From Tubiluchus corallicola (taxonomy: Eukaryota; Priapulida; Priapulimorpha; Priapulimorphida; Tubiluchidae): 64,000 nt of DNA. The notes below the pieces were generated by a model. That model was not told the origin of the DNA. It saw only the letters and a program-made list of their open reading frames with translations, and searched no databases. Below are positions 1,806-63,929 of this stretch, piece by piece; positions within the stretch are counted from its first letter, which is position 1, and the number at the start of each line of letters is the position of its first letter. The position numbers and the translations under genes are program-made. The stretch spans positions 62,001 through 126,000 of the forward strand of contig JAQGDQ010000123.1 in NCBI GenBank assembly GCA_030141605.1, given 5' to 3'.

Positions 1806-1868
1806 ATATCACGATGTTCTCCCGTTTGTGTGTGACTGCTTAAATCACGGTTACTTGAAAAATATTTC
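1806..1868 (-). CDS. Exon 43: second half of zinc finger 13
   Basis: Phase 2 to 2, 63 nt, acceptor tttacag and donor gtaagt. It encodes KYFSSNRDLSSHTQTGEHRD, giving C-x2-C-x12-H-x5-H. The following exon was not found, so the gene probably continues left of the window or ends in a short exon I cannot recognise. Confidence 0.78.
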
Positions 1869-2254
1869 CTGTAAAACAGCAACAAATGCTTTTTAATGAA
1901 AGCACACACATGTCCAAATATGCTTAAGGCAACTCCAACTAGCACTTTTGCTCATTTCTGAGATTATCCTTGCTAATGAAATGGAATGCAGCCTAACAAC
2001 AACCATCTATCTTACATTTAGTAGATGGTGTCCTTACGTGCGGGATTCTAACTTGAAGAATGTTAGGCTATACAAAATAATTTTAAAAAATAACGAGAGA
2101 CTTTTGAAACACCTGATATCATCAAATGCTAGCGAAAAATTTACAAGATTCAACTGCCAAAATACTAAATGCCACCCGTCTCAATGTAGAGTTCATCATG
2201 TTAAAGAAACATTGTATATTATTATATGTGTAACTTTAAATGAGACGAATAAAA

Positions 2255-2297
2255 TAACCTAACCTAACCTAACCTAACCTAATCTAATCTAATCTAA
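2255..2297 (+). repeat. AACCT/AATCT pentamer tract
   Basis: About five AACCT units followed by three to four AATCT units, next to an aataaa-like sequence and the intron beside exon 42. The pentamer equals the arthropod-type telomere repeat but is short and internal. Confidence 0.85.
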
Positions 2298-2306
2298 GAT
2301 ACTTAC

Positions 2307-2365
2307 AGACAGACGGCACAAGGCCACGAGTCACTGGTCACAGAAACAAATGTGACTTCTTTATT
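2307..2365 (-). CDS. Exon 42: first half of zinc finger 13
   Basis: Phase 0 to 2, 59 nt, acceptor tttttag and donor gtaagt. It reads NKEVTFVSVTSDSWPCAVCL, ending after CxxC. The length equals exons 6 and 21, which hold the same cassette position. Confidence 0.78.
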
Positions 2366-2511
2366 CTAAAAATGAATAAAACCAACATGTTAGCATTTTT
2401 CAAAGAAGAAATCATAACAAGATATTAATCTAATAGTGACAAAATAAATCCAAAATTTAAACTTTGAAACCGAGCTTCGCCAAAAGGCAGCAAGCGTGAG
2501 AAAATGTGGAC

Positions 2512-2790
2512 TAGACCTGGATTTGAAGCCGAGACTTTTTGATTACATTCAACGCCTTGACAACTAGACCCACGAGCTTCGTATGATCACGAAGATTATG
2601 ATCATTGAAATCACCACTACAAACAACCAACTAATTAAACAGTATTCATTAATTACATAATTCATTAATTACTTATTTCACAACAATTATTCCCAATTGT
2701 GGATACTGAGTTGAAGAAAGAAAAGAGGCACCGAAAAACTGCAAACCCGTCGGGGCTTGAACAAAACACCTGGGATTAGACCTCAATAGT
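2512..2790 (-). mobile_element. SINE-like tRNA-derived sequences
   Basis: On the minus strand, gtgggtctagttgtcaaggc resembles a tRNA A box and ggcttcaaatccagg a B box (about 2519-2580). A second patch near 2690-2760 has gttcaagccccgacggg. A related patch lies at about 43905-43975. Boundaries are not defined. Confidence 0.4.
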
Positions 2791-2802
2791 ATTTAATGTA
2801 GC

Positions 2803-2905
2803 TACAGTAGGCGCCGCTTAATAGACTCACTTACTTTGGGACCGATGTGTTTTGACACAATTAACCGACTGAACCTATGACGGGATGGGTGAAGTGTTAC
2901 TGGTA
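2803..2905. mobile_element. Family C left-end fragment
   Basis: Contains gtaggcgccgcttaatagac followed by gtgttttgacacaattaaccgactgaac, like the start of the 7594 copy. Confidence 0.6.
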
Positions 2906-2993
2906 TAGAAGTATGTGTAACGTCTTGGCAACATTTGTAACATTGTTAAAAACTTTATAGAACATTTAACATAAATCTTTCTTGCTTATTAAT

Positions 2994-3460
2994 CTGTTTA
3001 TTCACAAAGACTACTGCTATGATAAGTCTAGAGAATGTAACGCCTCGTGGCTTGCCCACTAAAACAGTGAGGGGAAACCTTAGTGAGCACAAACGTTAAA
3101 ATATAAACCATAGATAAGAACACGTCACAAGACAGGAATGATAACGAAATTAGAACACGTTCTGGTAGGCGAATTCAGAGACCTAAGTTTCTTAATGATT
3201 ATGTTACCTAGTTTGAGTATTGATAACTTTCATGTTATTTAATTTTGTGACCTTGATATCTGCTTACATTGATGTTTTTCAGTTTAGTTGGTCAATGTTA
3301 CTTACTTTTAAAAGGAAGAGGATGTGACGTGTTCTTATCTATGGTTTATATTTTAACGTTTGTGCTCACTAAGGTTTCCCCTCACTGTTTTTAGCGGGCA
3401 AGCCACGAGGCGTTACATTCTCTAGACTTATCATGGCAGCAGTCTTTGTGAATAAGCAGA
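2994..3460. repeat. Long inverted-repeat (foldback) element
   Basis: Arms 2994-3128 and 3324-3460 are near-perfect inverse copies over about 130 bp (for example gataagtctagagaatgtaa against ttacattctctagacttatc), separated by about 195 bp. Confidence 0.92.
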
Positions 3461-61020: not shown

Positions 61021-61253
61021 CAACCAAACAGAAAACAAGAATAAGTTATGCTTTCAAAAGCCAGTACCACTCCATTACATGTGCTAAATTAACTAAACAA
61101 AACACACTTTGTATGCTCTGCTATTCAAGTTAACTGTGCAACTCACGACACTATTAACTACAGTAACACATACTAAAAACAATCGCACAATAATCATTGC
61201 AAAAACTGACATAACAGTTAAACTTATAGGAAGTGATACTAACGAATGTTTAC

Positions 61254-61318
61254 TGTACTGCACTTTGTGAGCAGCGGAAAGATGGTACAGCAACGAGATG
61301 TTGTAATAAAACTCCTTC
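61254..61318 (-). CDS. Exon 4: second half of zinc finger 2
   Basis: Starts in phase 2 after acceptor ttgtag and encodes KEFYYNISLLYHLSAHKVQY. The histidines are spaced H-x3-H, shorter than the usual x5. The only GT donor at the expected place (gtaaac) leaves phase 1, unlike the phase-2 rule of the other fingers. The next exon must then use a shifted acceptor. Confidence 0.6.
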
Positions 61319-61735
61319 CTACAAAAACCAAAAACAAATTTTAAAAAATAAACGAAAGACAATACGAGCATCCATAAAAAATTATTTAAAAAACAGGAAC
61401 GAGTATGTGATATTTGAAAAGTGAGTTTAAAAGTCTTTTGCTCAACGAAAAGTGCAATTTCCACTATTTGCAGTGCTGTTCAATTTAACGGCAAAAACAT
61501 GCACAAAACGGCAACAATTATACGAACCAGCGTGCTGTTTATTGAGTAGAGAAAACCATTTTCACAAAAAAATCACTATCACTATCAATAAGTGTTGCTA
61601 ATGTACTGCATGTTTTTTTACTTAATTTCTAGAATTAATAACAACATCTGTGTCAAAACGATTGTCTATACTTAGTAAACATCATCTTGATTTCTAGAGG
61701 CTGGCCCTTTCATGTAATTATATGGTTGTGTAACA

Positions 61736-62339
61736 TGTGTGCTTGCAAACCAAAACCGTCCAAAAGTCGGCATAGTTAAAATTACGTTATGATGCTTCAA
61801 AATAGAATGCCCGACAAATTTGGTCAAATGTCAAATTTTGTATTTTATAAAAACAAATGCTTTTCCGGCTAGAAATTAGTCCTGCAATTGTTAAAAACTT
61901 GTATTTTCAAACTCTGATAGTAGCTAAAGGAAGCAGTAATTTTGTTTCAGGTTTTTTCTGTTGCCAAGCGCAAATCTTCGTCAGGAAGAGCCATCTACTT
62001 GATTTAAACATAACTTCGATGTGCTCTTGCAAAGTCCATAGCAACAAACTTTTGTGCTGTTGCTAAGTGTTTTGTAGAAATGCGACAAAAAACAACGGCT
62101 AACTTAAATAGCAATTTTCTCAAAATTATGTTTTTCACTGCATAGCCTGCACCTCAACTTCAAGCTGGGTATCTCAGTTAAGAAATAAAATAGAGTGATA
62201 AACTTGGTATCAAAATTATCATCATATGAAGATTCAGGATACATGAATAACTAGAAAAGCTTAATTGCTGACTAATGGACAATTTCGCTACATACACACA
62301 AGCACATATACACACAAGTACATACGCTGCAAGCACACA
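61736..62339. mobile_element. Family D full copy 4, inverted
   Basis: Left tgtgtgcttgcaaaccaaaa, right end near tgcaagcacaca; the interior gttgccaagcgcaaatcttc is the inverse of copies 1-3. Confidence 0.8.
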
Positions 62340-62810
62340 TATATATACCACAGGAATCAGTTCTCAGGGTTTCATGAAAATAATTTGCTTCTACAAGTGT
62401 CGTAAAAATATTTGTAAAAAACATAGATATTAGTGTAAACGTATAGTGTGACAGCCACGAACCACCAAGTAACATCTACGTATTTTGCCAATATTCGTAT
62501 GATGCTCGAAACCAAAATATGTTCAAAAGTTCTTTAAAAATTTAAAAATCTAATACTTCAATGTTCTATTTTATGATAACATGTTTTTGCAATAGCAAAA
62601 ACCCCTTGACCCATATTAATTATTGGTTTTAATGAATAACAGTACCACCGGGAAAAATTTCAACTGTTCACTTCCATTAGGTTGACTCAAATATACAAAG
62701 TAATAATTAAAGTTTCTTTCAAAAGGAATAAATCTACCGAATCAATTAGTAATTTGTATGTTCTTGATACAAATTAAACGATAGCAAACACAAATTAAAA
62801 CACTACATAC

Positions 62811-62920
62811 TGGCAAAGAGCACATTTGAACAAAGCATTACGCAGCTTATCAATATCATCCAAGTCTTGAGGACTAACGTCCACGACCATCTTCTCGGTC
62901 TGAATAGCTTCCTTCAATGC
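62811..62920 (-). CDS. Exon 3: first half of zinc finger 2
   Basis: Phase 0 to 2, 110 nt, donor gtatgt. It starts ALKEAIQTEK, carries an acidic stretch (QDLDDIDK) and ends FKCALCQ. The intron falls straight after the CxxC zinc ligands, as in the other fingers. Confidence 0.78.
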
Positions 62921-63346
62921 CTATGGAAACAAATTTAACAATATAAACGTATTAGTAACCCCAGAACGTATCAAGTATTTTATCCTATGTAGAGTAATAG
63001 CTATACAAAAGCTATAAAGGACACATTAAGAAAGCCAATTATGCTAACGAATTTACAAGTTTTTTACAGCGTTACTGTTAATACAAGTTCTGTGTGCACT
63101 AAGGCAGTATACAGGTAATGCAAAATTTCAAGATGAACTTTTCTAGATTTATGTACGTAACATAAGTAAGGGGTTTTCTTGTGCTTTAAGAATATCAAAA
63201 ACAGACAGCAACAATAAACTGTACGGTACTACTAAAAATTATTTGAATACAGCTACCACCTAGTGCTGCTTTTTTATCTTTTTTATTGTAAGTTATAATA
63301 TAACCAGGATTGGCGTATGGTATCAGTTTCCCTTTTAAGTGCTTAC

Positions 63347-63413
63347 CGCATGCGTGTTGAGGATAACATTTGTATTAGTTTCTTTAGCCTTTTCAATTAG
63401 ATGATTTACGAAC
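63347..63413 (-). CDS. Exon 2: linker after finger 1
   Basis: Phase 2 to 0, 67 nt, with acceptor ttttag and donor gtaagc. It encodes a short polar linker beginning WFVNHLIEKAKE and ending NTHA. This is the linker part of the three-exon cassette (second half, linker, next first half). Confidence 0.7.
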
Positions 63414-63866
63414 CTAAAACAAAAAGTGTTGCTCACAAAATTATAATGGGAGTGAAAAACAATGTTCCTAGACTCAAAGCACTTGTAAATGTACTTGCTT
63501 GACCTGACATTAGACACTTTACAATTTTCCCATCACTGCTATAATGCTAATTAAATTAATACATGAGTGAGTACCCAGCTGTCCAATAGGAGGCTTTATA
63601 GTCAACACCTTTAATTCAGTAGTTCCTCAATGATTCTTGTTTAATGCAGAAAATAATATTAATTAAATACAAATAGCAACATCTAAAGTACCAAATAGCT
63701 TAAAATGTAGCTACTACCGTGGAGAAAAAATTTAAAAAAAGCAGAAAAATTTTAGTAACTTGTTTGTTACTAATGCAGACCCTATCTGCAAGGTATTTAT
63801 TATAAATTCAATAAACAAAATCATTAAAATTTGTGTACATGTGCAAAGATAACTAAACTCTCTTAC

Positions 63867-63929
63867 CATTTATGATGTTTACTTCCTTTCAAATGATTTA
63901 CCAACTCCAGCATGCTGGAAAAGCCTCTC
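63867..63929 (-). CDS. Exon 1: second half of zinc finger 1
   Basis: Phase 2 to 2, 63 nt, acceptor tgtag and donor gtaaga. It encodes RGFSSMLELVNHLKGSKHHK, with the two zinc-ligand histidines spaced H-x5-H. The CxxC half must lie upstream, beyond the right edge of the window. Confidence 0.75.

Follow-up and report, generated by a model that had tools for sequence, protein, structure and literature searches.

The stretch of the Tubiluchus corallicola genome considered here (the window; 64,000 nt, positions 62001 to 126000 of contig JAQGDQ010000123.1, C2212 below, in an assembly of 343.5 Mb) very probably contains most of two tandem paralogous genes on the same strand, designated A and B, which specify arrays of zinc fingers each split by an intron. 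Window coordinates are contig coordinates minus 62000. A preliminary description had assumed one giant zinc-finger gene, but this view was given up because of a stop codon at 47544, an ATG at 42681, and the similarity of the 3' ends, gene B being closed at its own 3' end by an exon similar to the last exon of gene A. The complete explanation, consisting of tandem paralogs, block duplication of split fingers, and a nuclear RNA role of the products, is considered probable as a whole, while its components are held with different confidence.

Reading of the minus strand of the window, which has a G+C content of 36%, yielded 43 exons with splice sites (A1-A14 and B1-B29). They contain 13 zinc fingers with both halves inside the window and a lone second half at 63867-63929, whose first half is located outside at C2212:127041-127105. 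A phase-2 intron splitting at least 12 fingers behind the CxxC ligands had been proposed before, and this was borne out. In 11 complete fingers the cut comes two bases after the second Cys codon, and it is displaced downstream in the remaining two of the 13, by three codons at 13.5 kb and by one codon at 9.5 kb. The finger at 18.8/15.4 kb has no clear second His. All 14 second-half exons are of phase 2-2, but their lengths range from 54 to 75 nt and not, as had been stated, from 57 to 69 nt. The recurring order of first-half exon (phase 0-2), second-half exon (2-2) and linker exon (2-0) holds for all six cassettes named in the preliminary description, the linker of the one at 2.4-1.8 kb being found outside the window (C2212:61074-61137). 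As a general rule it does not hold, since strictly it is kept by only six of 13 fingers, the others showing a fused linker and first half, two linkers, or the end of a gene.

These exons clearly exceed chance expectation. Applying fixed thresholds, 11 first-half exons were detected compared to a mean of 0.33 and a maximum of 2 in 30 dinucleotide shuffles, and nine second-half exons compared to a mean of 0.03 and a maximum of 1. On the plus strand, 0 first-half and 0 second-half exons were found. The motif patterns were drawn up after the exons had been seen; shuffles and opposite strand, not the pattern itself, constitute the control. Some exons are missed by the fixed thresholds and were read by eye, and the matrices for scoring splice sites were written by hand. 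Scanning the minus strand for unbroken fingers (C-x2-C-x12-H-x3-5-H) gave one match that is neither of low complexity nor broken by stops, at 21457-21519. It was excluded from the genes, as it ends a frame which we take to resemble the tail of a retrotransposon and reaches 22.3 bits with zf-C2H2, below the cut-off of 25.2. Homologs with fingers in uninterrupted exons, named earlier as evidence that would speak against the proposed structure, were not present among the paralogs read in this genome.

The 3' part of gene A (47544-63929, minus strand) comprises 14 exons forming a chain in frame, and the gene extends upstream past the window edge, to C2212:134269 or farther. Inside the window are the complete fingers X1, Y2, X2, and Z and the second half of Y1; the flanking DNA above adds both halves of a finger X0, linkers, and the first half of Y1. 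The stop codon (47544-47546) lies in exon A14 (47544-47577), and AATAAA is found 399 nt further on. The window part of gene B (1806-42681, minus strand) comprises 29 exons, whose chain stays in frame without stops under two isoform models. Its first coding exon B1 (41978-42681) is RS-rich and begins with the ATG at 42681 in the context AACCATGG, preceded by two codons by a TGA in the same frame; the acceptors scored in this region are either poor or located upstream of that stop. Gene B runs to a stop at C2212:48544 (window -13456), about 13.5 kb past the edge, and the flanking DNA there contains a linker, X0, Y1, X1, a last second half, and a terminal exon. In total, 12 fingers with both halves and one further half were found in gene B, each split by an intron, and a chain of 37 exons is open in one frame to the X1 finger below the window, specifying 2096 or 1435 residues.

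Comparison of the two genes at their 3' parts revealed ten corresponding exon pairs, nine of equal length. In frame, 116 of 244 residues are identical, compared to 24% and 22% out of frame. Differences at the three codon positions amount to 101/66/144, a bias indicating coding constraint. The terminal exons are also alike (KVEGQQKPSA versus KVGEQQKLEYSGR, each followed by a stop), so that gene B ends with an A14-like exon, and the last second half of gene B resembles that of finger Z.

Exons B2-B15 are matched by a further paralog, gene C, on contig C2123, to which a 66% relative of one gene B exon had given the first lead. In tblastn searches covering 80 kb, 13 of these 14 exons were found collinear on a single strand, with E values from 2e-20 to 0.08, B9 being the missing one, and an RS-rich frame immediately precedes them. 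With the phases of gene B imposed, all 14 exons could be delimited in gene C, eight of them with equal length; B10 has 151 nt in gene B after correction and 154 nt in gene C. The match to B16 is weak and that to B17 not convincing. Over 493 codons (B9, B16, and B17 excluded), identity is 52%, with 0.36 nonsynonymous (dN) and 2.0 synonymous (dS) substitutions per site and 182/131/242 differences at the three codon positions. From the exon matches it follows that the 5' half of gene B is conserved and identically split. On inspection, sequences at C2123:120.6 and 129.1 kb that might have continued gene C were attributed to chance similarity or mobile elements and not retained.

The large exon B18 of gene B (18861-20929) contains RRSKWD, which agrees with the stringent pattern published for UHM-ligand motifs of splicing proteins (PMC3415423). 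It is followed by 21 copies of a 63-nt tandem repeat (19034-20372) within a frame of 701 codons, where other readings are also open over long distances. A codon test on the repeat revealed no constraint: silent codon differences numbered 401 and replacement differences 1058, values much like those of a shifted frame. The donor of B18 and the acceptor of the next exon, B19, are one and the same site (TTTCAG|GTCAGT at 18861/18860). The chains B17-B18-B20 and B17-B19-B20 both stay open, accounting for the 2096 and 1435 residues, respectively, whereas B18 and B19 together lead to a stop; the unspliced reading of B18 stops at 18824. A choice between the two exons, an insertion of 5 nt or an assembly error, or the end of the gene at 18824 are possible explanations. 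That growth by a two-finger, six-exon block is combined with a switch of gene B at the shared site, between B19, the first-half exon of finger f6, and B18 (690 residues, largely written by a minisatellite, with the UHM-ligand motif), is regarded as rather doubtful. No other genome match to B24 or to the first 182 residues of B18 was obtained at E 0.1, and among viral contigs no relative of B18 or of the retrotransposon piece was detected.

Growth by duplication of a genomic cassette, as the preliminary description suggested, was supported, but the block for which it is best documented consists of two fingers and six exons and not of one finger. In gene A, the unit at 63.9-58.2 kb can be aligned with that at 57.0-49.7 kb across two fingers plus linkers, a length of about 100 residues (z 24). 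Among single cassettes, 14 of 91 pairs exceed z 5 and one exceeds z 10 (A_f2 with A_f4, z 21). Ten of 78 linker pairs exceed z 2.5, eight of which are formed within the 3' units of the two genes, A and B, by linkers that follow Y fingers or X0; the other two are the linkers of the first fingers (f1) of genes B and C, and A-L0 with A-X0L, which crosses types. The pair A-Y1L/A-Y2L and the comparisons of the gene B f1 linker with 3' linkers stay below this value. An unusual donor, GTTAGT, fits three corresponding second halves, those of X1 and X2 in gene A and of X1 in gene B, and was seen in no other listed exon. In a tree of units, X0 of gene A groups with X0 of gene B (100% support), indicating that the separation of X0 and X1 predates the split of the two genes. 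Units 1 and 2 of gene A show no nucleotide match at 1e-3, and their duplication is therefore considered old. Between unit 1 of gene A and that of gene B, three nucleotide matches overlapping exons and one intronic match of 85 nt persist. Unit 2 also shares a match of 396 nt with gene B, which by eye resembles a repeat found elsewhere in the window. As expected of a multi-domain super-repeat grown by tandem duplication of exon blocks, neighboring blocks with matching borders and similarity across several exons were found in units 1 and 2 of gene A and in the 3' ends of genes A and B.

The following history appears likely from these data. A single ancestral finger would already have carried the intron, and all fingers would descend from it. 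The arrays would have grown as genomic blocks were duplicated (in the 3' parts, the two-finger, six-exon block), and the duplication of the region would have come after that of the block.

Hints at a function came from the finger families. The zf-met profile (PF12874, cut-off 21.2 bits) is passed by fingers f4/f5 of gene B (33.8) and by the f1/f2 part of gene C (22.1, f2), zf-C2H2_jaz (PF12171, cut-off 22.6) by the X0/Y1 part of gene A (25.0, Y1), and zf-C2H2_2 by f3-f5 of gene C (29.9 versus 26.9). Values for zf-C2H2_jaz below the cut-off were obtained for gene B f4/f5 (21.2), the window part of gene A (19.1), and gene C (21.1 and 16.4). With zf-U1 (PF06220, cut-off 22 bits), the best score was 16.4, and PDB searches gave weak finger matches only. 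The products may tentatively be described as nuclear RNA-binding scaffolds, probably in splicing or RNA processing. This role is proposed because of the RS-rich N-terminus and the UHM-ligand-like motif: both segments would link the protein to the splicing machinery, and the many U1/matrin/jaz-like fingers would contact RNA or protein.

Several observations weigh against the structure, history, and function proposed. Many splice sites score weakly on the matrices used, and the GTTAGT donors, with scores of -4.5 to -2.0, were partly chosen to keep the phase. The flanking DNA did not yield the 5' end of gene A, nor, in gene B, the linker that should follow X1 or the first-half exon of the last finger. 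Since the phases in gene C were imposed, order, similarity, and length are the independent evidence there. Between genes A and B, dS is saturated by one method, leaving codon-position bias to argue for constraint, and the 63-nt repeat shows none at the protein level. The branching among A-Y1X1, A-Y2X2, and B-Y1X1 is supported at 51 only. Concerning function, a UHM-ligand motif arises in 8% of shuffled whole proteins and in 1% of shuffles of the exon alone, and most fingers remain under Pfam cut-offs; zf-met scores are too low for gene A (19.3), for f1-f3 (15.0) and f6-Y0 (13.8) of gene B, for f3-f5 of gene C (20.1), and for two further parts given to Pfam.

Same strand and same phase logic throughout could still suggest a single gene across the window and beyond, with the stop at 47544 in a usually skipped exon. 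This is very improbable, considering the strong context of the ATG at 42681, the fact that no good acceptor separates the in-frame stop from the open frame, the exon like that at 47544 which closes gene B, and the B1-like frame preceding the gene C exons. Three genes are rather unlikely as well. In that case gene B would end at 18824, where the B18 frame indeed meets a stop, and the exons from 18.8 kb downwards would belong to another gene, similar in type to gene A; in the 80 kb around gene C, moreover, convincing matches comprise just B2-B15, plus the weak one to B16. B19, however, requires an upstream phase-0 donor and no start was seen for it, both chains across the shared site are in frame, and C2123 was read to 130000. 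Shared phases might also reflect repeated intron insertion at a preferred site instead of duplication of split fingers, as finger cores outside the two-finger units are weakly alike and the f1 linker of gene B is unlike those of the 3' units. Exon lengths and linkers common to units and genes render this quite improbable. Decayed copies may exist, judging from an inverted broken exon copy in gene A and two weak matches on contig C1797, one of them beside stops, but that the exons described here are themselves remnants of a decayed gene is extremely improbable given the open exon chain and the codon-position bias between paralogs.

Two tandem genes probably grown by duplication of split-finger blocks have partial counterparts in known systems. 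According to the survey by Bjorklund et al. (PMC1553488), repeats often grow by several domains at once, a two-finger unit having been copied in one human C2H2 protein; in nebulin, four exons are repeated per seven domains, with exon borders inside domains; and long C2H2 repeats are contained in one exon in 78% of cases in human and 11% in zebrafish. The super-repeats of nebulin and human C2H2 proteins share with genes A and B the joint copying of multi-domain blocks, whereas long human C2H2 repeats are mostly encoded by single exons and the fingers here are each cut at nearly the same codon. The locus is a further variant within known multi-domain repeat growth. Long human arrays in single exons keep few marks of their growth history. 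Here, the intron within each finger and the linker exons tag each copy, and size and order of duplications become readable: the unit came first and the gene later, and the paralogs are both tandem and dispersed. It is a clear case in which a growing array takes along introns that lie inside a domain, not between domains. The top entries of a narrow literature search included no paper on similarly split fingers.

With the zf-met/zf-C2H2_jaz/zf-U1 families the likeness consists in fingers f4/f5 of gene B, f2 of gene C, and Y1 of gene A passing zf-met or zf-C2H2_jaz; at least 20 uninterrupted zf-met fingers occur elsewhere in the same genome by a frame search, which is blind to split ones, whereas every finger here is split. 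The nuclear proteins ZNF318, ZNF638, and matrin-3, with RS-rich regions and a few U1-like fingers, are presumably similar. Members of the matrin-3/ZNF638 family carry RRM domains beside their fingers. With the parts submitted to Pfam, which do not include the 5' end of gene A, no RRM appeared among the families listed at E up to 1. Splicing proteins with UHM-ligand motifs resemble gene B by RRSKWD in B18, but the motif is single here and none was seen in the fetched part of gene C.

In gene A (all exons on the minus strand), the window part of unit 1 (61244-63929), aligned with unit 2 as described, consists of a second-half exon (63867-63929), a linker (63347-63413), a first-half exon (62811-62920), and a second-half exon (61244-61318); the linker after finger X1 follows at 58245-58272 (phase 2-0). 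Unit 2 (49703-56981), defined by exon reading and by its alignment with unit 1, has first half, second half, and linker at 56923-56981, 54765-54827, and 53241-53304 for its first finger and at 51352-51473, 50237-50311 (donor GTTAGT), and 49703-49760 for its second. Finger Z with the terminal exon (47544-48983) is divided into 48901-48983, 47968-48033, and 47544-47577. The inverted, degraded copy of an X0 first-half exon with its acceptor side is located on the plus strand at 57559-57631 in an intron of gene A. Its CxxC is lost, and it shows 76% nucleotide identity to C2212:131149-131221 (E 1e-7) and a profile match with E 2e-5. Frames presumed to be reverse-transcriptase-like are found directly upstream of the first recognized gene A exon (C2212:135808-137027, minus strand) and between genes A and B (44013-44312, plus strand), the latter having no Pfam match.

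For gene B, likewise on the minus strand, the f1 cassette (37872-40386) is composed of a first half at 40178-40386, a second half at 39094-39156, and a linker at 37872-37953. Finger f2 (36453-37741) has its halves at 37683-37741 and 36453-36521. In f3 (31743-33875), a fused linker and first half (33501-33875, phase 2-2) precedes the second half (33226-33291) and the linker B10 (31743-31893), the start of which was corrected using the paralog and has an acceptor with a score as low as -2.8. A longer version of B10, to 32079, was dropped after comparison with gene C; part of this stretch resembles other sites in the window. The f4 cassette (28274-30068) includes 29980-30068, 29151-29213, and the linker 28274-28367, and f5 (25455-27511) includes the halves 27387-27511 and 26927-26983 and further exons at 25962-26018 (2-2) and 25455-25524 (2-0). 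Finger f6 (15359-18860) is built from 18775-18860, with its acceptor at the B18 donor site, and 15359-15427, while f7 (11540-13642) has a fused linker and first half at 13511-13642 and a second half at 11540-11593. The f8 region (4190-10490) contains an exon at 10437-10490, a fused first half at 9458-9769, a second half at 7287-7346, and linkers at 5320-5460 and 4190-4241. Finger Y0 (1806-2365) is read from 2307-2365 and 1806-1868, with its linker beyond the edge. About ten tandem copies of 51 nt at 24964-25458 include the donor of B17 and repeat its GTAAGT, and five near-identical copies of 60 nt (98% matches), open on both strands, occupy 6534-6836 in an intron of gene B.

Upstream of gene A, gene B exons gave no convincing match to C2212:196000 (E up to 1) and none among the matches listed to C2212:256000 (E up to 20; incomplete for B6-B12); a B14-like match at C2212:180554 (E 0.004-0.005) was set aside. 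Rfam and tRNA scans gave no matches. The two matches on C1797 (47632-52217), one to the first half of an X finger and the other to the second half of X0, are on one strand in the right order with E 0.009 each, and by sequence the pair may be a decayed relative, perhaps a fourth copy; the one read closely has stops nearby and gave no exon by the criteria used. COX1 was not detected in the assembly; wnt genes were, in keeping with an animal source. The same wnt exons recur on many contigs with identical scores, pointing to redundant contigs in the assembly.

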